A stretch of DNA of 38,412 bases from Bacillota bacterium (GCA_029008595.1 JAQXJH010000060.1:1-38412), one strand, 5' to 3'; counted from the stretch's first letter, positions 2,123-14,236 are shown. Numbers and translations are program-made. The notes: generated by a model not told the origin, from the letters alone.

Positions 2123-3148
2123 ATGCAGCGCAGCGAGTTTTTTTATGATCTTCCGGAGGAATTGATCGCGCAGACTCCGGTGGAACCGCGCGACCACAGC
2201 CGGCTGATGACGCTGGACAGAAAGACGGGAGCGGTGACGCACCGCCATTTTTACGATATTGAAACGCTGCTTCGCCCCGGAGACTGCCTGATCGTGAACG
2301 ATTCCCGCGTTCTGCCGGCAAGGATCTTCGGCGTCAAGGAGGATACCGGTGCGAATGTGGAATTTCTTCTGCTGACGCCGAAGGGAGGCAGCCGTTGGGA
2401 GGTGCTTGCCGGGCCGGGACGCCGCGCCAAACCGGGCAGCCGTTTCGTGTTCGGCGAAGGTCTGCTCCGCGCCGAGGTGCTGGAGGTGCTCGAAGGAGGG
2501 AACCGTCTGGTGGAATTCTCCTGTGACGGCAATTTTTTTGCCGTTCTGGATCAGATCGGCCAGATGCCGCTTCCGCCGTATATCCATGAAAAGCTGCAGG
2601 ATCAGGAGCGTTACCAGACGGTCTATTCCCGCGAGGTCGGGTCAGCCGCCGCGCCGACCGCCGGCCTGCATTTTACGCCCGAGCTGCTGGAGCGGCTGCA
2701 GCAGAAGGGCGTTTCCGTCGGCCGCGTCACGCTTCATGTCGGCCTCGGAACCTTCCGCCCGGTCAAAGTGGACGATATCACTCAGCATAAAATGCATGCC
2801 GAGCATTACCACCTGCCTGCCGAAACCGCGGAGCTGATCAATCGCACCAAAGCGCAGGGAGGAAGAGTGATCGCGGTGGGAACGACCAGCTGCCGCACGC
2901 TGGAATCGGTCGCAGCTTATGAAGGGAAGATCTGCGAATCGGACGGCTGGACCAGCATCTTTATCTATCCCGGCTATTCGTTCAAGGTGCTCGACGGCCT
3001 GATCACGAATTTTCATCTGCCGGAAAGCACGCTGATCATGCTCGTTTCCGCCTTTGCCGGCTATGATCATACTATGCAGGCCTATCGGGAGGCGGTACAG
3101 GAAAAATACAGATTTTTTTCATTCGGAGACGCAATGTTCATTGTGTAA
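2123..3148 (+). CDS. queA: S-adenosylmethionine:tRNA ribosyltransferase-isomerase
   Basis: Transfers and isomerises the ribosyl part of SAM onto preQ1-modified tRNA to give epoxyqueuosine. At 341 residues it has the usual length. Diagnostic stretches are the N-terminal [13 protein letters not shown], the [14 protein letters not shown] block, [16 protein letters not shown], the [17 protein letters not shown] block, and [18 protein letters not shown] near the C-terminus. The start at 2123 has AAAGGA 12 bases upstream; the ATG at 2115 is out of frame. No clear sigma-A promoter was found between the divergent asd promoter and this gene. The partner enzyme gene tgt lies 9 kb downstream at 12150, separated by the moxR operon and the AT-rich insert. 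Confidence 0.97.
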
Positions 3149-3167
3149 AACTGCATTTTTGTTTCAG

Positions 3168-3206
3168 GGGAGTTTTCCGTTCAGGGCGGAAGGCTCTCTT
3201 TTTTTT
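3168..3206 (+). terminator. Intrinsic terminator after queA
   Basis: GGGAG..TTCCG pairs with CGGAA..CTCTC around a seven-base loop, with a TT/GG internal mismatch, and is followed by eight T residues (3199-3206). It ends the queA transcript before the moxR promoter. Confidence 0.8.
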
Positions 3207-3268
3207 GTGGCGCGCGGTCTGACAAAAAAGCTTCAGAAAAAATATTTTCGGGTATAAACGGATATGAC

Positions 3269-3296
3269 TTGACATTTTTCTGTTTTTCGGTAATAC
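3269..3296 (+). promoter_or_regulatory. Promoter of the moxR-DUF58-tgpA operon
   Basis: TTGACA (3269-3274) is followed after 16 bases by TAATAC (3291-3296). The moxR start codon lies about 60 bases downstream. The -10 is imperfect; the -35 is exact. Confidence 0.7.
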
Positions 3297-3355
3297 TGTT
3301 GTTATATATTCGTGGCGTTTTCCTTGAAAATCAAAGAGCAGTTAGGGTGAATTTA

Positions 3356-4282
3356 ATGGAAGATGCAAAAAAAGTAATCGATGAAGTAAAAAAAGCAGTA
3401 GTCGGGAAGGATGACGTTCTGGAAAAGGTTCTGATGGCGATTCTGGCGAAGGGCCATGTTTTGCTGGAAGACGTGCCCGGCGTCGGCAAGACCACAATGG
3501 CGATTGCATTTTCCCGGGCGATGGAGCTTTCGTATAAGCGGCTGCAGTTTACCCCGGACGTTATGCCGTCCGACGTAACAGGATATACCGTGTTTCAGCA
3601 TGCGGAAGGAACCAGCGTTTTTGTTCCCGGCGCGGTGATGTGCAATCTGTTTCTGGCGGACGAGATCAACCGTACCTCCAGCAAAACGCAGTCTGCGCTG
3701 CTGGAGGTCATGGAAGAAAGCGCCGTGACCGTGGACGGCGTGACCCATCCGGTGCCGAAGCCGTTTCTTGTGATCGCAACGCAGAATCCGGTCGGTTCGT
3801 CCGGAACGCAGCCGCTGCCGGAATCGCAGATCGACCGGTTCATGGTTCGCCTTTCTCTGGGCTATCCGGACCGGCAGAGCGAAATGGAGATGCTGCGCCG
3901 CCGCAAACAGAATGCCGTCGAACCGATCGGGCAGGTGATCCCCCCCGAACGGCTGATCGCGATGCAGGAACAGGCTTCGCAGGTCTTTGTCTCCGACGCA
4001 TTGTATGATTATATCACTGCGCTGACCGCCTGGACGCGTGAGCAGCCGGAGATCCGGCTCGGTGTCAGTCCGCGGGGATCCATTGCTCTGATGGAAATGG
4101 CAAAAGCGTGCGCCGTTCTGCGCGACCGGGATTATCTGGCGCCGGAGGACGTCCGCGAGGTGTTTGCCGATGTCTGTTCTCACAGAATCATTCCCGGGCC
4201 AAAAGCGCGCATCGGCGGTGTGGGTGTGCCGGAGCTGGTCGCGCGCGCTCTGGAACAGGTCAAGGCTCCGCCCGCCGTATAA
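3356..4282 (+). CDS. MoxR-family AAA+ ATPase
   Basis: A cytoplasmic AAA+ ATPase of the MoxR/RavA group, proteins thought to act as chaperones for assembly or activation of partner complexes. The 308-residue product has Walker A in DVPGVGKTTM (about residues 41-50), Walker B in LFLADEINR (about 101-108), a sensor-1 ATQNP motif and the C-terminal lid with GVSPRGSIAL. I chose the ATG at 3356 because AGGGTGA lies just upstream and the predicted promoter overlaps the earlier part of the open frame. Its stop overlaps the first ATG of the next frame by one base. A DUF58 protein and a transglutaminase-like membrane protein follow, a common triad in bacteria. No substrate can be named from sequence. 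Confidence 0.95.
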   Translation: MEDAKKVIDEVKKAVVGKDDVLEKVLMAILAKGHVLLEDVPGVGKTTMAIAFSRAMELSYKRLQFTPDVMPSDVTGYTVFQHAEGTSVFVPGAVMCNLFLADEINRTSSKTQSALLEVMEESAVTVDGVTHPVPKPFLVIATQNPVGSSGTQPLPESQIDRFMVRLSLGYPDRQSEMEMLRRRKQNAVEPIGQVIPPERLIAMQEQASQVFVSDALYDYITALTAWTREQPEIRLGVSPRGSIALMEMAKACAVLRDRDYLAPEDVREVFADVCSHRIIPGPKARIGGVGVPELVARALEQVKAPPAV

Positions 4283-4326
4283 TGTTCCCGGCCGAATCAA
4301 CTGCGCAGAAAGGGATGATCGAAGCA

Positions 4327-5520
4327 ATGGCGAAGCAGAGGGTGGCTTATCTGTTGGTGCTGACCGTTTCCTTCGGCCTGTTTCTCTGGTGGGAGGATTA
4401 TATCGTACATCTGCTTTTTTATTTTCTGCTCCTGCTGCCGCTGATCTCGCTGGCGGTTTCGCTTCCGCTTTGTTTTCTGCTGCGGTGCAGGGTCGAATTC
4501 CCGGGAGCTACGGCAGAAAAAAATCGCGCGGTAACGCTGCGCCTTTGTCTGCGGAATCGCTGGATCGTTCCGGCCCCGTGTATCCGTGCCGTTGTGACCT
4601 GTGAAAATGCGCTGGGCGGGTTCGGAACGAAAGCAAAGCAGAAGGTGTGTTTTCCGGTCGGCTTCGCTTCCGAAAGCGAACGGCCGGTGACGTTTGAATT
4701 TCCTTATTGCGGAAAAATAACGGTGTGCGTGCGGCATCTGCGCGCCTGCGATCTGCTGGGGATTTTTCCGCTGCCGGTTCTGCACCGCAAACCGTTCACC
4801 GCCTGTCTTTATGTTCTGCCGGAACGGCAGGAACTGGAATGTGCAGCGGACAGCGGAGCCGATCTGGGGCAGGAAAGCTCGGTTTATTCCGAAAAAAAGC
4901 CCGGCAATGACCCGGCGGAAATTTTCCGTCTGCGGGATTATCGCCCGGGCGACCGTCTGCACGCGGTTCATTGGAAGCTCAGCGCCCGGCTCGAACGCCT
5001 GATAGTCAAGGAATTCGGTCTTCCGCTGAACACGTCTGTCCGTTTTTTGTTCGAATTGGGCCGGGACGCGGATCTTGCTCAGGCCGACCGGCTGCTGGAA
5101 GCCTTTTTTTCCATCGCTGCATTTCAGGTGGAAGAGGAAATGATCCTGACGGTGCAGTGGCTGATGCCGTCCCGCCAACTGGAAACACGCACCGTTGAGG
5201 ATGAGGACACTTTGGCAGAAGCGCTGCACAGGCTGCTGAACCTGCAGTCCTCGCCGGACAGCGACGGGGCGCTGGAAGCCTTTTCAAAGGAAGAGATCCC
5301 CGCAGGCTGTCATCTGATCTATCTGTCGGCGGTGCAAAACGGCGCTCCCGCGGCGGATTTGCTGGAAGAATTGCTTCAGACGGGGGTCTGCGGCCGCGTT
5401 TCCGTGCTGACGGCCGGCGGCGAAAAGGACTTTTCCGTTCTGCAGGGCATTCCCGGCTGCGGCGTCTATTCTTTGAACGACGGAGTGCTGAACGCCGGTC
5501 TGGAAGAAATGAAAGTGTGA
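4327..5520 (+). CDS. DUF58 domain membrane protein
   Basis: About 397 residues. Two hydrophobic segments near the N-terminus (roughly residues 7-22 and 27-53) anchor it, followed by a cytoplasmic or exposed region. The DUF58 signature YRPGDRLHAVHWKLSAR lies near residues 204-220. DUF58 proteins are coupled to MoxR ATPases and often resemble a von Willebrand A fold, but their biochemical role is unsettled. The start is ambiguous: the frame is open from the ATG at 4282, which overlaps the moxR stop, and there are ATGs at 4315 and 4327. AGAAAGGG at 4308-4314 fits 4327 best. It overlaps or abuts the next gene, consistent with translational coupling. Confidence 0.88.
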   Translation: MAKQRVAYLLVLTVSFGLFLWWEDYIVHLLFYFLLLLPLISLAVSLPLCFLLRCRVEFPGATAEKNRAVTLRLCLRNRWIVPAPCIRAVVTCENALGGFGTKAKQKVCFPVGFASESERPVTFEFPYCGKITVCVRHLRACDLLGIFPLPVLHRKPFTACLYVLPERQELECAADSGADLGQESSVYSEKKPGNDPAEIFRLRDYRPGDRLHAVHWKLSARLERLIVKEFGLPLNTSVRFLFELGRDADLAQADRLLEAFFSIAAFQVEEEMILTVQWLMPSRQLETRTVEDEDTLAEALHRLLNLQSSPDSDGALEAFSKEEIPAGCHLIYLSAVQNGAPAADLLEELLQTGVCGRVSVLTAGGEKDFSVLQGIPGCGVYSLNDGVLNAGLEEMKV

Positions 5521-5537
5521 AAAGGAATGGTTCGTCA

Positions 5538-8132
5538 ATGAAAGACAAGCATGCGGCAGCACCGGCGCAGTTTTTGCCGGATTCTTTTCCGCCGGACCGG
5601 GGGCCGGTCCCCAAACAGGAAACTGCAGCCTCGGTTCTGCTGTGCAGCGGTGTTTTCGGGCTGGCGCTTTTCGGCTGCCTGTTTCTGTTTCTGAATGTTT
5701 TTGATCTTCCGGTCGTTCTTTTTCCGTGCGCTGCGGCAGCCGTTGTCTGCTGGGCGCTCTGGACGGCAATGTTCGCTTTGCTGAAAGGCAGGCGGAAGCT
5801 CTGGCTGACGGTTCCGGTTCTGCTGATGATCCTGCTGGCCGTTCTGCTTCGGCAGCCGCTGCAGCAGGGACTTTTGCGGTATTACAACCGCCTGGCCGAT
5901 ATGCTGAACATGACGACCTACTGGACGTTTCCGCGCGCGCCGCTGCAGCTGTCCGACCAATCGGCAGCCGTGGTGCAGAATACGCTGGCGGTCCGCTTCC
6001 TGTTTTTCTGGGTATCGCTTTTTGCGGGATACGCTGCGGTCGGACGCCGGAGCACCGGGCTGCTGTTTGCCGTCACGGCGGTATTTCTGTGGGCGCCGGT
6101 CGGGTTTCGTCTGCCGGTTTTGCTTCCGGCCTTTTTTGCCGTTCTGATCTCGTATTTTACACTTTATTCTTTCCGGCTCGGCACACGGCGGCAGCCCGGC
6201 TTTCGTCCGGGGCGAAAAAGGCGGCGCGGCGAAGGCCGTTTCCGCGCTTCGCGGATGCAGACCTTTGCGGTGATGCCGGCTGCGGCAGCGGCGGCGGTGC
6301 TTGCGGTGCTGATCCTTCCGCAGCAAGGCTACCGGCGGCCGCAGTCCATGTCACAGCTGCGCAGTTATGTGGAAAATTTTGAATGGTCAAAGGTGGACTG
6401 GAACAGCGTGTTCGGGATCCGCTTTCAGGGCTTTGGGGACGGCGATCTGCGGGATCTCGGTACGCTGAATCTTTCGGATCGTGTCGTTCTGAAGGTCAGA
6501 ACGGAACCGGGGCATACGGTATACCTGCACGACTTTGTCGGCGCAAAGCTGGAAAACAGAAAATGGGAAGCTATTACCGAACCGGAGTATCAAAGCGCCT
6601 CCGCCGCTTTTCCGGATCTTATTCCGCAGCGGCTTGGGGCAATGCTGTATGAATTCGAAGACGACTATCCGACCTACTGGGATGGCTCGTCTTTCTGGGA
6701 TGTTCCGGAAGCGTATCAGATCCGGATGCTGAATACGGGACTTCCCGAAGGAACGGCCTTCCTCAGCAGCTTTCTGTGTGAGGCGGACGAGCAGACGCTT
6801 GCGTTTTCGGCGGATGCGATGGCGTACACACGCGGCGGAGACGAGTTTTCCTTCTCCGTTTATCCGTTGTCCGGCTCTGGAATGGTCAGTTCATACCTGT
6901 CTATGTGGGGTCAGTTTGAGGATTATCGCGATTATTATCTGAACGTTTCCCGGGTCTATCCGGATGTTCTGTGCGTCCCGGAGGATGCACAGAACCGGCA
7001 GGGAGTCAGTTTCAGCGATTTTTATGCACAGCTGGAGGCATATCATCAATATCTTTACGACACCTATACCGAACTGCCGGAGGACACCCGGCAGGCGGCG
7101 CAGAGGTTGCTGGAAGAGTACAGGCTGCAGCGGAGGAATATCGATATTGAACGGGCGATCTGCGATGTGCGCGATCTGCTGCAGAAAACCTGCCGTTATT
7201 CGCTTTCCCCCGGGCAGATCCCGCCCGATGCAGATTTTACGACCTATTTTCTGGAGAAAAGCAGGGAGGGCTACTGCGTTCATTTTGCCACTGCGTCGGC
7301 AGTTCTGCTGCGCGCCATGGGGATCCCCGTCCGGTATGCCGAAGGCTTTGTGCTCACCAGATTCGATTCCGCCGAAAGAACCGATCCGGACGATTATATC
7401 TGGATCAGGGAGAACAGAGCGCATGCATGGATCGAAGTGTATGATCCGGTTCGTCTGGAATGGATCCCGGTCGAGATGACACCGGGATTCAGCGATATGA
7501 GCGGGACGGTAAATCCGAACGCAGCCCCGGCAGTCAGCTCCTCTGCTCCGAGGCCTTCCTCTGCTCCGTCCTCTTCCCGGGAAGAAGAGTCTTCTTCTTC
7601 CAGACCGCCGGTCGAGTCGCGTCTGCCGCTTTCTTCGGCGCAGACTTCCTCCTCCGCAGCGGTGCCGCAGAATCCGTCGGAAAACGGCTCCTCTTTCGAT
7701 CTTCGCGGCTGGATCCCGTTCTTTGCTGTGCTGGCGGCTGCCGTTCTCGCCGTCCTGCTGCTGTGCAGCATCCGCCGCGCAAGAGCCTTGCTGCGGCAGA
7801 AAAAACTTTTCCAGCAGGATACCGATCAGGCAGTGCTGTACGGCTGCCGGTTCCTGATCGCCATGCTGCGCGCGGCAGGCTGTCCGGTGCCGAAAAATGA
7901 CGATACGCCGGAAAGCTATACCAAAAAAGCGCTTGCTGTGATCTCCTGGCTGCCGCGCCGCCATCTCCGTGCTGTGCTGGAGTCCGGGCAGAAGGCCCGC
8001 TTCGCGGAAAAACCGTGTTCTGCCGAAGAACAGCAGGCTGCTGCGGATCTGGTCAGCGAGCTTCTGACCATGCTCCCGAACCAGATGCCGAGGCTGCGCG
8101 CCGCATGGTTCCGGATGCGTTTCCCGCGCTGA
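5538..8132 (+). CDS. TgpA-like membrane transglutaminase domain protein
   Basis: A large (864-residue) membrane protein with several N-terminal hydrophobic segments in the first 260 residues, then an extracytoplasmic transglutaminase-core region. The catalytic triad can be read as Cys580 in GYCVHFATASAV, His629 in RAHAWIEVYDP and Asp636. A Ser/Pro-rich linker (about residues 660-715) leads to another membrane segment and a C-terminal cytoplasmic domain resembling DUF4129. The order matches TgpA/YebA-type proteins encoded with MoxR and DUF58. The start at 5538 follows AAAGGA by 12 bases; a GTG at 5517 overlapping the previous stop is the alternative. Its last 15 bases, including the TGA, recur exactly at 12014-12028, at the far end of an AT-rich insert. 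The actual substrate is unknown. Confidence 0.92.
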   Translation: MKDKHAAAPAQFLPDSFPPDRGPVPKQETAASVLLCSGVFGLALFGCLFLFLNVFDLPVVLFPCAAAAVVCWALWTAMFALLKGRRKLWLTVPVLLMILLAVLLRQPLQQGLLRYYNRLADMLNMTTYWTFPRAPLQLSDQSAAVVQNTLAVRFLFFWVSLFAGYAAVGRRSTGLLFAVTAVFLWAPVGFRLPVLLPAFFAVLISYFTLYSFRLGTRRQPGFRPGRKRRRGEGRFRASRMQTFAVMPAAAAAAVLAVLILPQQGYRRPQSMSQLRSYVENFEWSKVDWNSVFGIRFQGFGDGDLRDLGTLNLSDRVVLKVRTEPGHTVYLHDFVGAKLENRKWEAITEPEYQSASAAFPDLIPQRLGAMLYEFEDDYPTYWDGSSFWDVPEAYQIRMLNTGLPEGTAFLSSFLCEADEQTLAFSADAMAYTRGGDEFSFSVYPLSGSGMVSSYLSMWGQFEDYRDYYLNVSRVYPDVLCVPEDAQNRQGVSFSDFYAQLEAYHQYLYDTYTELPEDTRQAAQRLLEEYRLQRRNIDIERAICDVRDLLQKTCRYSLSPGQIPPDADFTTYFLEKSREGYCVHFATASAVLLRAMGIPVRYAEGFVLTRFDSAERTDPDDYIWIRENRAHAWIEVYDPVRLEWIPVEMTPGFSDMSGTVNPNAAPAVSSSAPRPSSAPSSSREEESSSSRPPVESRLPLSSAQTSSSAAVPQNPSENGSSFDLRGWIPFFAVLAAAVLAVLLLCSIRRARALLRQKKLFQQDTDQAVLYGCRFLIAMLRAAGCPVPKNDDTPESYTKKALAVISWLPRRHLRAVLESGQKARFAEKPCSAEEQQAAADLVSELLTMLPNQMPRLRAAWFRMRFPR
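8118..8132 (+). repeat. Left 15-bp direct repeat of the AT-rich insert
   Basis: CGTTTCCCGCGCTGA, the last codons and stop of the transglutaminase gene. The identical 15 bases occur at 12014-12028, where they no longer belong to a gene. Composition changes sharply inside the pair. Confidence 0.85.
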
Positions 8133-8174
8133 CAAATATTTTTGATATTTTACATAATTTTTAACATCTGTAAG

Positions 8175-8203
8175 TTGACAAAAATCACACCGTATAATAT
8201 AAT
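8175..8203 (+). promoter_or_regulatory. Perfect consensus promoter of the insert operon
   Basis: TTGACA (8175-8180), a 17-base spacer and TATAAT (8198-8203) match the sigma-A consensus at all 12 positions. It lies just inside the left repeat and should drive the five-gene cluster that follows. A second TATAAT at 8193 has too short a spacer. Confidence 0.9.
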
Positions 8204-8242
8204 AAATTATAACAAAAAAGGAAAATTGCCTTAAATTTGCCT

Positions 8243-8278
8243 GAAAGAGAAAGGCCTTTCTGATGGCCTTTCTCTTTC
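8243..8278 (+). promoter_or_regulatory. 14-bp perfect hairpin in the leader of the insert operon
   Basis: GAAAGAGAAAGGCC (8243-8256) and GGCCTTTCTCTTTC (8265-8278) are exact reverse complements with an eight-base loop. It lies about 33 bases after the predicted transcript start and 31 bases before the first start codon. No T tract follows, only AAGCAG, so simple termination is doubtful. Attenuation, mRNA stabilisation or a protein-binding site are alternatives. Confidence 0.75.
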
Positions 8279-8309
8279 AAGCAGAATGGGACTGAGGGAT
8301 GTTGCTGTT

Positions 8310-9140
8310 ATGAATATGTCGTTAATCAGATTTCATATGACCAATATGACCAAACGAAATGAATACAAATTTTCGCTTCTTATGTTGGGAGTCATTCTTA
8401 CAGCCATGTTTACCGAAGAATGCTTCTATTTGCGGGGAATCGATCAAAGCTGCAATATTTCTGCTGCAACAGGCTGGTGCTTTTATCTTGATACATATGA
8501 AAACCAGGCAGGAAGAATATTTGTATTTGTCTTTTTCGGTTTTCTTGCGTCGCTCATGTATTCGGATTTTTTTATGACAGAAAAACAATACCGTATTTTT
8601 TCAATCTCGACGGTTCGTTCCTCTGGGTTTCAAGAGTATTTGCGTGCCGGTGGGATCGTGATATTCGTGGGAGTTTTTTTGACTTATTTATGCTTCTTTT
8701 TAGTTTCCCAGCTGCTAATGTTTATTCTCTTTCCTGCTGATGGGCATTTTTTTGGGCATATCAATACACCGGAATATCGTGTGCCTATCACTTTGGATAT
8801 GGGCGTATTTCCCGAATTAAGATATAACTTTCCTTATCTGCATAATTTAATTTTTATTTTCTGGTCTTCAATTTGGGCAGGCATCCTTGCATTGATTTCT
8901 TTTGCTTCATCCTTTTTCATCAAGAATCGGTTAGTCGTTCTTGCCGTTCCACAGTTACTCCTGCTTTTTCTCAGCATGATACTTCCGATGAAGTATCAGC
9001 CGATCTATCAATTATATCCCGGCGTTAATTATATGGGATCAAGCGCGTTAGGCTTTTTCATCCTTCCGCTTTTACTGCTGTCGGGTGCTGTTGCAGTGAT
9101 TTGGAATCAAACAAAAAAAGGAAAAGAACTGATTTTATGA
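8310..9140 (+). CDS. Polytopic membrane protein, probable ABC-2-type permease subunit (1 of 3)
   Basis: A 276-residue protein with about six hydrophobic segments (roughly residues 20-36, 75-95, 115-148, 187-212, 218-238, 252-272). It has a basic, Met-rich N-terminus (NMTKRNEYK), as expected for a cytoplasmic start. No family motif was recognised with certainty. The permease role is inferred from six membrane spans and from co-location with an ABC ATPase (10560-11207). I chose the ATG at 8310 because GAGGG lies 11 bases before it; the ATG at 8286 has no ribosome site. Its stop overlaps the next start as ATGA. Codons are AT-rich compared with the flanking genes. Confidence 0.7.
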   Translation: MNMSLIRFHMTNMTKRNEYKFSLLMLGVILTAMFTEECFYLRGIDQSCNISAATGWCFYLDTYENQAGRIFVFVFFGFLASLMYSDFFMTEKQYRIFSISTVRSSGFQEYLRAGGIVIFVGVFLTYLCFFLVSQLLMFILFPADGHFFGHINTPEYRVPITLDMGVFPELRYNFPYLHNLIFIFWSSIWAGILALISFASSFFIKNRLVVLAVPQLLLLFLSMILPMKYQPIYQLYPGVNYMGSSALGFFILPLLLLSGAVAVIWNQTKKGKELIL

Positions 9141-9835
9141 TTGGAACAGAAAAAAGATATATCGCATATTTTACTGCCGCAGTTGTTGCACTCAGAATAT
9201 ATCAATATTTGACGTTTGATTTGACGTTTGGAAACGCAGCGGCCATGATGACAGAAGGTCTTTATTCGTGCCTGAATCCGCCCGGCTTTTTTTGCATCAT
9301 ATTTCCGATAGTCTTCGGCTGGGTAATTTTTCAAAGGAGCAAGATGATTTTTTCCGATATTGTCGTAGTGCGATATCGAAAAAGAACAGATTATCTTTGG
9401 CTTTTGATGCAAACAGCGCTGATACAGGCTTTTTTGTTTTTCGGAATCGCCAATGCTACATCCTTCGGATTGAGCCTGCTTTTAGGATGTCCCATAACTG
9501 TTTCCGTTCTGTCGTTTTATTCTCTTGTGCAGATCGTTGCAACCGTTTTCTTCGCCTTTATTGCGTTGCTTTACTTTTTGATTGTAATTGTTACAAAAAA
9601 CAATGCAGCAGCTTTTATAGGGATTGCATTGTATTGCATATATGACTTTATGACATTCTTTCTGCCATACGATTTGTTCCACATAGGGTGGAGGCGTGTT
9701 GCCGGCATAGGAACGGAGACTTCCGTTTTTAGCAGCATAGGATTCTTTTCCGGATGCTTTGCATTGTTGAGTGTTCTTGTTTTAATCGGTATCTCAAAAA
9801 TAGATTTTTTAAACAGGAGTACGGAGAATGAATAG
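9137..9835 (+). CDS. Polytopic membrane protein, probable ABC-2-type permease subunit (2 of 3)
   Basis: A 232-residue protein with about six hydrophobic segments. Between the second and third spans lies VVVRYRKRTDYLW, a cytoplasmic basic loop ending in Trp that resembles the R-x-x-R-x-x-W loop of the third subunit. I do not recognise a named family. The start ATG at 9137 overlaps the preceding stop by four bases, and the stop overlaps the following start by eight, so the three membrane genes are translationally coupled. It is similar in size and topology to the third subunit but not obviously a recent duplicate. Function is inferred from context only. Confidence 0.7.
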   Translation: MIGTEKRYIAYFTAAVVALRIYQYLTFDLTFGNAAAMMTEGLYSCLNPPGFFCIIFPIVFGWVIFQRSKMIFSDIVVVRYRKRTDYLWLLMQTALIQAFLFFGIANATSFGLSLLLGCPITVSVLSFYSLVQIVATVFFAFIALLYFLIVIVTKNNAAAFIGIALYCIYDFMTFFLPYDLFHIGWRRVAGIGTETSVFSSIGFFSGCFALLSVLVLIGISKIDFLNRSTENE

Positions 9836-10547
9836 ATCGTATGATAAAAGAATGCTTTTAGCTGCCGCGGCTGCTCTTATCACATCCTATTTTTTGATCA
9901 GAAATTTTTCGGTCGGTCCATCGGAGAGTCTTCTGTCATTTTTTGATGGCACTTATTTGAATGCGGAGTCTAATCCCTTTCTTATCATCCTTCTTCTGCT
10001 TCCATCAACGCTCTTTTTGTATCTATGGGGCGATTTCTTCAAAAGTGATTTTGAAAGTATGTGTGTTTACATATTTACACGTACAAAAAACCGGACAAAA
10101 TGGTTGATGAAGAAAGTGCTGATTCTGTTTTCCTATTGGTTGGCGTTTTACTTGATGTATGCCGTGAGCATGTTCGTACTGTTAGCGATCAAAAACAAAA
10201 ATTTCTTTTTCCTTATCAAAGAAGTACCCATGCTGTTATGGATTGTGCTGTGGAATGTGCTGATGATGTTTCCGATCCTGTTGCTTGAAAATTTGTTGTC
10301 CATTAAAATCGCTCCGGTTAAGTGTGTGTCCATCGTTATTTTGCTGCATCTTATTTCTGTTTCTTTGCTGATTATGTCCCCAAACGCTTTGCTGTTTATC
10401 CTTCCTTCTGCTCAGGCTGTGTATCAATGGCACTTTTCTGTTTTACCAAATTTTACGATTTTGTATTCCGTCTTTTATTTTCTGTTAATCATTACGGTCG
10501 AATTAGGTATTGGAACTGTGCAGTTAAAAAGAATTGATTTACTATAG
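9828..10547 (+). CDS. Polytopic membrane protein, probable ABC-2-type permease subunit (3 of 3)
   Basis: A 239-residue protein with about six hydrophobic segments. The cytoplasmic loop VYIFTRTKNRTKWLMKK resembles loops seen in uncharacterised permeases encoded beside small ABC ATPases in Clostridia. The start ATG at 9828 has ACGGAG immediately upstream and overlaps the previous gene by eight bases. Twelve bases separate the stop from the ATPase start at 10560. Its position directly before the ATPase supports a membrane-subunit role. Substrate unknown. Confidence 0.7.
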   Translation: MNRSYDKRMLLAAAAALITSYFLIRNFSVGPSESLLSFFDGTYLNAESNPFLIILLLLPSTLFLYLWGDFFKSDFESMCVYIFTRTKNRTKWLMKKVLILFSYWLAFYLMYAVSMFVLLAIKNKNFFFLIKEVPMLLWIVLWNVLMMFPILLLENLLSIKIAPVKCVSIVILLHLISVSLLIMSPNALLFILPSAQAVYQWHFSVLPNFTILYSVFYFLLIITVELGIGTVQLKRIDLL

Positions 10548-10559
10548 GAGGTGCGGTCG

Positions 10560-11207
10560 ATGAACGACGGTATTGAACTTTGCGGAGTAACAAAAAAGAT
10601 CAAAGAAAACTTAATTCTTGATAATATATGCTTGTCGCTGAAAAAAGGAGAAGTATATGGTTTTTGCGGAACAAATGGATCAGGGAAAACGATGCTGTTC
10701 CGGGCAATCGCAGGTCTGATTCATCTCACAGAGGGAGAAATATCTGTTTTTTCAAAACGAATTGGTGTCGATGTGTCTTTCCCGGAAAGTCTGGGGATTA
10801 TTATTGAATCGGTTGGATTTTGGCCGGATTATACGGGATTTGAAAATTTGAAGTTGTTGGCTTCAATAAGAAATAGCATTAATGAGAATCAAATAGAAGA
10901 ATCGCTTTATCAAGTCGGCCTTTCTCCGAAGGACACAAGAAAATACAAGAAATATAGCCTTGGTCAGAAGCAGCGGCTTGCTTTGGCGCAGGCAATTATG
11001 GAAAAACCCGAGTTGTTGATTTTAGATGAGCCAACAAACGCCTTGGACGAAGAAGGAATTGAACGTTTTTACTCTATTATTCAGAAAGAACATGAACGTG
11101 GGACTACAGTATTGATTGCGAGCCATAACAAAGCAGATCTTTACCAGCTGTGCAGCCGTGTCTATACGCTTTCCGCCGGAAAAATCGTAAATGAAGAAAT
11201 ACGGTAA
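10560..11207 (+). CDS. ABC transporter ATP-binding protein
   Basis: A 215-residue ABC ATPase that should energise the three upstream membrane proteins. Walker A is GTNGSGKTML (about residues 36-45). The signature is degenerate, YSLGQKQRLALAQ instead of LSGGQ. Walker B is LLILDEPTNALDE and the switch histidine lies in IASHN. This pattern is common in ABC-2 exporters and in self-protection transporters. The start ATG at 10560 has TAGGAGGTG seven bases upstream; an in-frame GTG at 10551 lies inside that ribosome site. It is the only ATPase of the cluster. No peptide precursor or modification enzyme lies nearby, so a bacteriocin link is not supported. Confidence 0.93.
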   Translation: MNDGIELCGVTKKIKENLILDNICLSLKKGEVYGFCGTNGSGKTMLFRAIAGLIHLTEGEISVFSKRIGVDVSFPESLGIIIESVGFWPDYTGFENLKLLASIRNSINENQIEESLYQVGLSPKDTRKYKKYSLGQKQRLALAQAIMEKPELLILDEPTNALDEEGIERFYSIIQKEHERGTTVLIASHNKADLYQLCSRVYTLSAGKIVNEEIR

Positions 11208-11265
11208 AACGCGAATGAATTTTTAGTGAGACAGCAGAGAGAGGTTCGCAAACAAGGAGGCTGTT

Positions 11266-12006
11266 ATGAAATACAGATATTGCGTAATAGTTTTATCGTT
11301 GCTTTTGTGTATTTGCATATTCACAGGAATGACGACACGGTCAAATTTTACGGATAACAGTAAAGCCGATATGAATGAATTAGGCTATAATTATTTTTCA
11401 AATGATTTTGAAGAGGTTGATATCGAAAGTCTTTGGGATGAGGCTGATTTGATTGTGGTTGCTAAGTTTACCGGAAATAGAACCGCAAGAAATCGGTGTT
11501 TTTTGTCGGAAGTTGAGGTATTATCGGTCGAAAAGGGAGATAAAAATTTAGAAAAAAACATTATTAGCGTGTACGAAGCGGTTTCATACAGCTCTTTCCG
11601 GATAGACGATTGGATTGCTGACAGCCCGTCAATTTGGAATAAAATTGAGAAAGGATTTCATATTTCTAAAGAAAATAATCTCTACTTACTTCCCGGTCAG
11701 CGGCCATATGAAGTTTCACCGCTTCTAAATCAGGAAAAGGATTATATTCTTTTCCTGAATGCGTATGACCCTGATAACATTTTAAACAGTGACCCTGAAA
11801 AATATATTTTTGTGGAATGTCCGTGTGCGAAGATATGGGCGACAGATTCTGTTGCGATTTCCGAATATCAATTACCGGATGAATATCCGTTGTACAAGGA
11901 TATCAGCACATATGAAATATTGCTCACGGATCAAGACTCATACAGAAAGTTTCTTTCTGTTAAGCAGAAGATCATGGATAGAATATCTTATAATCAGAGC
12001 AATTAG
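11266..12006 (+). CDS. Exported protein of unknown function linked to the ABC cluster
   Basis: A 246-residue protein with a signal-like N-terminus: MKYRYC followed by a hydrophobic run to about residue 22. There is no clear lipobox; cysteines lie inside the hydrophobic core. The mature part contains WDEADLIVVAKFTGN, then SEVEVLSVEKGDKNLEKN, and later DYILFLNAY. This resembles a loosely defined group of Gram-positive exported proteins of the form 'ADLIVVGKV ... VEKGD ... YLLFL'. The resemblance is from memory and no function is known. The start ATG at 11266 has AAGGAGG eight bases upstream. It is AT-rich like its neighbours and is the last gene before the right 15-bp repeat. Confidence 0.75.
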   Translation: MKYRYCVIVLSLLLCICIFTGMTTRSNFTDNSKADMNELGYNYFSNDFEEVDIESLWDEADLIVVAKFTGNRTARNRCFLSEVEVLSVEKGDKNLEKNIISVYEAVSYSSFRIDDWIADSPSIWNKIEKGFHISKENNLYLLPGQRPYEVSPLLNQEKDYILFLNAYDPDNILNSDPEKYIFVECPCAKIWATDSVAISEYQLPDEYPLYKDISTYEILLTDQDSYRKFLSVKQKIMDRISYNQSN

Positions 12007-12013
12007 CTCATTC

Positions 12014-12028
12014 CGTTTCCCGCGCTGA
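12014..12028 (+). repeat. Right 15-bp direct repeat of the AT-rich insert
   Basis: CGTTTCCCGCGCTGA, identical to 8118-8132. Here it is intergenic, directly after the exported-protein gene and just before the tgt promoter. The copy next to tgt may be the relic of the original end of the transglutaminase gene. Confidence 0.85.
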
Positions 12029-12043
12029 GCTGCAATTTTTACG

Positions 12044-12072
12044 TTGACTTCCTGCACAAAAGCCGATATAAT
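12044..12072 (+). promoter_or_regulatory. Promoter upstream of tgt
   Basis: TTGACT (12044-12049), 17 bases, then TATAAT (12067-12072). It lies 16 bases after the right repeat. Transcription should start near 12079, only a few bases before a terminator-like hairpin. Confidence 0.88.
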
Positions 12073-12074
12073 AA

Positions 12075-13280
<1,206 letters not shown>

Positions 13281-13740: not shown

Positions 13741-13816
13741 GTCCGGGTATTTTTTCTTTTCCCCCGCAATATAAATGAGACAGGATCGATCATTTGCTAT
13801 GGAAGGGGGAACTGCC

Positions 13817-14236
13817 ATGCGTTCCGGAAAATCTGCCGCCCGGGAAAATGGGTTCTGGCATCCTATTCGCGCCGTTTGTTGGGGGACTGCCGCAGGAGCT
13901 GCCGTAATCATGCTGCTGATCCTGCTGTTCACGTTTGCTTTTGTGAAGCTGCGGCAGGTTCCGCAGGCGGCTGCAGTTCCGCTTACGATTGCAGCAGCTT
14001 CTGCCGGTGCGTTTGTCGGCGGTTGTGTATCCGGCGGGATTGCCCGACAGAAAGGGATCCTTTACGGATTTTCATCCGGGTTGCTTCTGTTTGTGCTGTT
14101 GTTTCTCTGCGGGGTCATTCTGGTGCGGGAGCCGTTGGCGCCGGCAGCTTTTATCAAGCTTGCGCTGATGATTTTTTTCGGTGTTGCCGGCGGAATATTG
14201 GGCGTCAACCGCAGGAGCAGAGTACGAATCCGCTGA
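13817..14236 (+). CDS. TIGR04086-like small membrane protein
   Basis: A 139-residue protein with four hydrophobic segments. The central AASAGAFVGGCVSGGIARQKG and the C-terminal GVAGGILGVN glycine-rich stretches resemble the TIGR04086/YrzE-type membrane family, often found beside yajC in Firmicutes. The function of the family is unknown. The start ATG at 13817 has GGAAGGGGGA eight bases upstream; the open frame extends further up without a better ribosome site. No clear terminator separates it from yajC, so co-transcription is likely. Confidence 0.82.
   Translation: MRSGKSAARENGFWHPIRAVCWGTAAGAAVIMLLILLFTFAFVKLRQVPQAAAVPLTIAAASAGAFVGGCVSGGIARQKGILYGFSSGLLLFVLLFLCGVILVREPLAPAAFIKLALMIFFGVAGGILGVNRRSRVRIR

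Follow-up and report, generated by a model that had tools for sequence, protein, structure and literature searches.

A foreign five-gene cassette, probably an orphan LanFEG-like exporter operon, behind the stop codon of a tgpA-like gene in a Bacillota genome

Introduction

How can a block of genes come to lie directly behind the stop codon of a host gene when it carries no visible means of moving itself? This question is raised by a 38,412-nt stretch of DNA from a Bacillota bacterium (GCA_029008595.1, JAQXJH010000060.1:1-38412, hereafter the window), in which an AT-rich five-gene segment lies between a tgpA-like transglutaminase gene and tgt and is flanked by two copies of the 15-mer CGTTTCCCGCGCTGA (Table 1). 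We find that the segment is foreign and that its insertion and the 15-bp scar are real, and we consider it likely that the segment is an orphan ATP-binding cassette (ABC) exporter operon of the LanFEG and ABC-2 kind that was acquired horizontally and entered as one block behind the tgpA stop codon.

Results

An exact repeat at a sharp border in composition

The two copies of CGTTTCCCGCGCTGA are identical, and the window holds no third site even when two mismatches are allowed; in the whole 2.28-Mb assembly they are the only exact copies, with two further sites that differ by one mismatch. Such a match exceeds chance, as the longest word common to two 80-bp stretches lying 3-6 kb apart in the same window was 13 bp in 17,609 random pairs, and Markov-simulated flanks shared a word of this length in about 0.3% of cases. 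The left copy coincides with a change in base composition: GC content is 0.38 within the segment (3896 bp at 8133-12028 when the right repeat copy is included) versus 0.55-0.58 outside, and maximum-likelihood GC segmentation fits the left border best at 8133, the first base past the left 15-mer (supported range 8119-8138). The right border of the two-border segmentation falls beyond the repeat, at 12081 (supported range 12073-12172), because the host intergenic DNA there is likewise AT-rich. GC content at third codon positions is 0.37-0.45 in the five cassette genes versus 0.56-0.70 in host genes, and all five fit the codon usage of the host worse than the host genes tested (a comparison that leaves out the DUF58 gene), except for a TIGR04086 gene (13775-14233) whose fit is about equally poor.

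All five genes are on the plus strand, behind a promoter-like site that matches the sigma-70-type consensus at 12 of 12 positions. No recombinase or transposase gene was detected among the window open reading frames (ORFs) tested, no inverted repeat is common to the two segment ends, and the 3.9-kb segment contains no traces of integrase, relaxase or transfer genes. Rfam returned matches below threshold only and PADLOC generic ATPase matches only. A preliminary description of this locus had reported the exact repeat, the shift to AT in base and codon use between its copies, the co-directional genes with a perfect promoter of their own and the lack of integrase, transposase and terminal inverted repeat, and our analysis bears out each of these points.

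The genes point to a LanFEG-like exporter

The cassette encodes three predicted permeases of the ABC-2 type, an ATPase resembling LanF and an extracytoplasmic protein with a membrane anchor (ORF5); the likely starts of permease 1 and the ATPase were corrected to ATG 8310 and ATG 10560. The ATPase is the only one of the five proteins that Pfam recognises, and it matches the lantibiotic-protection ATPase family TIGR03740 with an E-value of 2.2e-44 and 151.8 bits, below the curated cut-off of 309.75. At the position of the Q-loop it carries Glu (IIIESVGFW), a residue present in 38 of 40 cassette ATPases when this one is counted among them. Replacement of the Q-loop Gln by Glu (E-loop) is a trait of LanF proteins; our literature search found no paper stating it as such. 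Permease 1 is recognised by no Pfam or NCBIfam model, and a structure model built with 10 relatives (predicted local distance difference test score, 77; predicted template modelling score, 0.80) resembles NosY of the NosDFY system and PmtD, both ABC-2-type transporters, with template modelling scores of about 0.45-0.6 and weak E-values. The structure model of ORF5 was too poor for use.

The nearest known systems are LanFEG/CprABC transporters (NisFEG, NukFEG-H, CprABC, NsrFE1E2G), with which the cassette shares ABC-2-type permease genes alongside an ATPase whose best curated match is LanF-like, a membrane-anchored extracytoplasmic partner and the occurrence without biosynthesis genes. LanFEG systems lacking biosynthesis genes are present in many Firmicutes (PMC4239024), and LanFEG transporters also occur in non-producers that lack these genes (PMC4239024; PMC5786555). 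The cassette departs from these systems in having three full-size permeases (232-276 aa each) rather than the expected two of about 250 aa, in that its permease 1 and ATPase escape the family models or their cut-off as described above, and in an ORF5 that is not recognisable as a lipoprotein. Moreover, no lanthipeptide genes lie nearby, and relatives of the cassette carry the gene of a small Sec-secreted protein instead.

Table 1. Features of the insertion locus, with positions counted from the first base of the window
Feature	Position	Strand	Remark
Inserted AT-rich segment	8133..12013	+	3881 bp; GC 0.38
Left 15-mer copy	8118..8132	+	last codons and stop (TGA) of tgpA
Right 15-mer copy	12014..12028	+	intergenic, before tgt
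Promoter-like site	8175..8203	+	TTGACA-17-TATAAT; 12/12, sigma-70-type, consensus match only
Strong hairpin	8238..8283	+	between promoter and permease 1; z = -4.3
Permease 1	8310..9140	+	predicted fold like NosY/PmtD ABC-2 permeases
Permease 2	9137..9835	+	4-bp overlap (ATGA) with permease 1
Permease 3	9828..10547	+	
ABC ATPase, LanF-like	10560..11207	+	best curated family TIGR03740, below cut-off; SLGxKQRL signature
ORF5, last cassette gene	11266..12006	+	N-terminal membrane anchor, beta-rich extracytoplasmic part; low-confidence model
queA	2123..3148		
moxR	3356..4282	+	named from its own sequence; moxR-DUF58-tgpA operon
DUF58 gene	ends 5520	+	after moxR; moxR-DUF58-tgpA operon
tgpA-like transglutaminase gene	5517..8132	+	3' end is the insertion point
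Promoter-like site before tgt	12044..12072	+	TTGACT-17-TATAAT; host side
Terminator-like hairpin	12082..12113	+	with T run
tgt	12150..13280	+	right flank

Relatives of the cassette are widespread and scattered

Relatives of permease 1 were detected in 20 other genomes among 398 of the family, 31 others among 394 of the order and 43 others among 391 of the class, counts in which the weakest matches may be other ABC permeases. Relatives of the cassette thus occur in about 5-11% of the sampled genomes, none of them at a tgpA-tgt site. The order permease 1, permease 2, permease 3, ATPase and ORF5 recurs in family genomes at unrelated loci, among them L090-L093 and L100-L101, where identity to the window proteins is 57-60% for the ATPases and about 21-30% for permease 1. 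Elsewhere, the cassettes are found after ybaK, prfC or a flagellin gene, beside an IS30-type transposase gene or adjoining a kinase gene. A second permease-1-like match in the genome of the window itself (C110) appears to be an ordinary ABC locus, and our literature search returned nothing on the cassette by name.

Many homologous cassettes open with a small protein gene encoding a Sec-type signal sequence, followed by a hairpin and then permease 1; none of the small secreted proteins tested matched a Pfam bacteriocin family. A stable fold (z of -2.4 or lower) directly precedes permease 1 in 9 of 16 cassettes versus 1 of 16 for the ATPase. In the window and at L090-L093, L100, L257, L265 and L269, this hairpin lies in the 90 bases upstream of permease 1 at a similar position and is unrelated in sequence. 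It probably serves as an attenuating terminator that separates the transporter genes from the gene of the small secreted protein. In the window, the promoter and hairpin are kept and the small gene between them is absent, so that this looks like a cassette that has lost its secreted partner. The arrangement of a small signal-peptide protein gene ahead of transporter genes recalls, by analogy only, that of lactococcin 972-type loci, from which the cassettes differ in that the tested small proteins lack a bacteriocin match and the window lacks the small gene altogether. Lactococcin 972 loci, moreover, encode one large membrane protein, versus several permeases here.

A single-protein search of plasmids and phages found no permease 1 relative. 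ATPase relatives up to 53% identical are present on plasmids; those on plasmids of Collinsella and Vescimonas have membrane-protein and DUF5028-type neighbours (a family on which our literature search found nothing) and lie near a resolvase-family gene and a tyrosine integrase gene, respectively. On a Eubacterium eligens plasmid (L143), genes for a related ATPase and membrane proteins form a single run with those for AgrB, a cyclic lactone autoinducer, a sensor kinase and a LytTR regulator.

Insertion scars differ among homologous cassettes

Significant flanking repeats (p <= 0.0025) border 4 of 40 cassettes, those of the window, L090, L257 and L098, with sequences that are unrelated to one another. 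As about 0.1 would be expected by chance in 40 tests, some excess of flanking repeats is real; a fifth cassette (L264) shows a repeat only when narrower flanks are used. Most cassettes nevertheless lack significant flanking repeats (36 of 40), so that these do not characterise the cassette in general, and the loci reveal no attachment site that they share. The preliminary description had suggested a search for the same genes elsewhere between other direct repeats; such cassettes do occur at unrelated loci, a minority of them with repeats.

In genome G269 (L090), the cassette lies between two terminator-like hairpins of about 57 bp that are copies of each other and occur nowhere else in that genome; on the reverse complement of G269:C1 they lie at about 5076-5131 and 9711-9766 and are perfect, with identical arms and different loops. 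At L090, the ORF5 frame also continues into a second, degenerate small-protein sequence. At L257, the repeat belongs to a degenerate second copy of a stretch of a kinase gene (about 5395-5527 and 10461-10664 on the reverse complement); this partial copy lies beyond the cassette and resembles the product of a single-crossover integration. A close pair of genomes, whose PrfC fragments are 98% identical, provides an empty site at an independent locus: the G330 cassette lies directly after prfC, where G192 has about 117 bp instead. The G330 cassette therefore replaced about 117 bp and left no repeat. The ybaK site in the G269 genus was uninformative as an empty site, since the right neighbour differs.

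In the genome of the window we found two Xer-like tyrosine recombinases, whereas a search for PF00239 (resolvase-family) recombinases found none. No integrase able to work in trans is thus evident among the resident genes, although the incomplete assembly could hide one. In a thin sampling that includes no congener, we found no related integrative and conjugative element (ICE) or integrative and mobilizable element (IME) with an integrase using the tgpA-end site.

The host junction is itself derived

In the window, queA is followed by moxR, the DUF58 gene, tgpA, the cassette and tgt. Among 80 tgt loci of named genomes, queA lies within 300 bp of tgt in 43, while neither DUF58 or tgpA between queA and tgt nor permease 1 near tgt occurs in any. 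A tgt-based scan reached relatives at 69-76% identity, many of which have queA and tgt adjacent, and DUF58 and tgpA occur together at other loci elsewhere in the family. As moxR-DUF58-tgpA separates two genes that are adjacent in relatives, queA-tgt adjacency is the ancestral state and the tgpA-tgt junction is itself derived. The preliminary description, made from the sequence alone, took tgpA-tgt as the junction to compare and could not show its derived state. The DNA that separates queA from tgt (3149-8132) has a host-like GC content, and its arrival was an earlier rearrangement. A 122-aa ORF within it (3640-4005) was rejected as a gene, being an out-of-frame reading within moxR from which the matches in relatives also come.

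The right flank shows an odd arrangement at 12044-12113: the promoter-like site ahead of tgt, which is nearly perfect, has a terminator-like hairpin with a T run no more than about 10 bp behind it. This hairpin is probably the original terminator of the tgpA operon, now behind the cassette.

Discussion

Our data are best explained by the horizontal gain of an orphan cassette for immunity or export, LanFEG-like by analogy with known transporters; the direction of transfer, like substrate and function, is inferred. One block would have entered directly behind the tgpA stop codon in a host lineage that had moxR-DUF58-tgpA between queA and tgt, so that the final 15 bp of tgpA became duplicated. 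The product would be an ATP-driven exporter composed of a LanF-like ATPase and three permeases, with the anchored extracytoplasmic protein in the position of a LanI- or NukH-like partner, and it would most likely expel an antimicrobial peptide or a small secreted protein from the membrane. Since the small secreted protein gene is missing, a role in orphan immunity or resistance is the most likely by analogy. Several points weigh against this reading. Its substrate and immunity function are drawn from analogy, and permease matches to folds in the PDB are weak (best E 0.016). Furthermore, the assembly is fragmented into 161 contigs, the two junctions are known from the assembly alone, and neither tgt-based nor tgpA scans, the latter including GTDB contigs in which no relative was found, uncovered a genome with tgpA beside tgt and without the cassette.

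Apart from its unusually clean scar, this is horizontal acquisition of an ordinary kind, and a single recombination event may account for it. Repeat-assisted or illegitimate recombination has a slight edge over the action of a site-specific recombinase that arrived together with the DNA or acted for it and is now gone. We give a chance just short of even to illegitimate or homology-assisted integration at the tgpA end, in which the 15-bp duplication would be a by-product of a single crossover or strand slippage that needs no dedicated recombinase. The one-off duplications of other kinds at G269 and L257, the many cassettes without duplication and the simple exchange of about 117 bp behind prfC all argue for this route, whereas an exact repeat ending precisely at a stop codon is tidier than it would predict. 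The exact 15-bp repeat at the composition border speaks for a decayed integrative element, a candidate we regard as possible though somewhat doubtful: the 15-mers would be attL and attR, a tyrosine- or serine-recombinase integrase and the transfer genes would have been deleted, and the cargo left behind could still move in trans. Insertion at a 3' end with a repeat copy restoring the gene end, and repeats of 8-60 bp, are traits of tyrosine-recombinase IMEs, and cis-mobilizable elements (CIMEs) are defined by retained attL and attR sites without recombination genes (PMC5704250). Like CIMEs and decayed IMEs, the window segment is cargo at a gene 3' end between short direct repeats that take in the end of the target gene, and it has no recombination genes. 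In contrast to them, no related element was found using the site of the segment, its homologues elsewhere mostly lack repeats and share no insertion sequence, and the att function of the 15-mers is putative. The 3.9 kb hold no remnant of mobility genes, the recombinases found in the genome are the Xer-like pair, and integrase or resolvase-family genes accompany ATPase relatives on two plasmids, with no general association seen. The entry of a foreign segment behind an intact tgpA coding sequence, as the preliminary description had proposed, is well supported by the GC border, the duplicated 15-mer and the absence of permease 1 near tgt at all 80 tgt loci. The attachment-site route that it suggested has partial support at most: homologous cassettes occupy unrelated sites, mostly without repeats and once by simple replacement, and the recombinases found in the genome are Xer-like.

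Other explanations are far less probable. Transposition with a transposase supplied in trans would make the 15-mers a target-site duplication and fits direct repeats placed precisely at the two ends, but the segment has no terminal inverted repeats and no transposase gene was found in the window, and we think this very unlikely. Target duplications as long as 15 bp also lie at the limit of the sizes known. Little credence is due to a coincidental repeat with the cassette border elsewhere: most cassettes lack a flanking repeat, so that repeats do not belong to the cassette itself, but a 15-mer is rarely reached by chance in such flanks and the left composition border lies at the repeat edge. 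Equally improbable, in our judgement, is that the cassette belongs to a family of recombinase-free cargo modules, mobile without a mobility gene of their own, which would enter gene ends time and again by an undescribed route and leave 15-57 bp of the target duplicated.

If insertion with duplication is correct, an empty site would carry a single 15-mer followed directly by GCTGCAATTTTTACG. If the preferred reading of a horizontally acquired LanFEG-like cassette is correct, a widespread and poorly annotated exporter cassette of Clostridia, whose permeases escape Pfam and NCBIfam models, would spread in one piece and in many cases together with a small secreted partner; the window would hold an orphan version of this cassette. 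The clean, repeat-flanked insertion makes the locus a good case for asking by what route cargo blocks that lack an integrase come to lie at gene ends.

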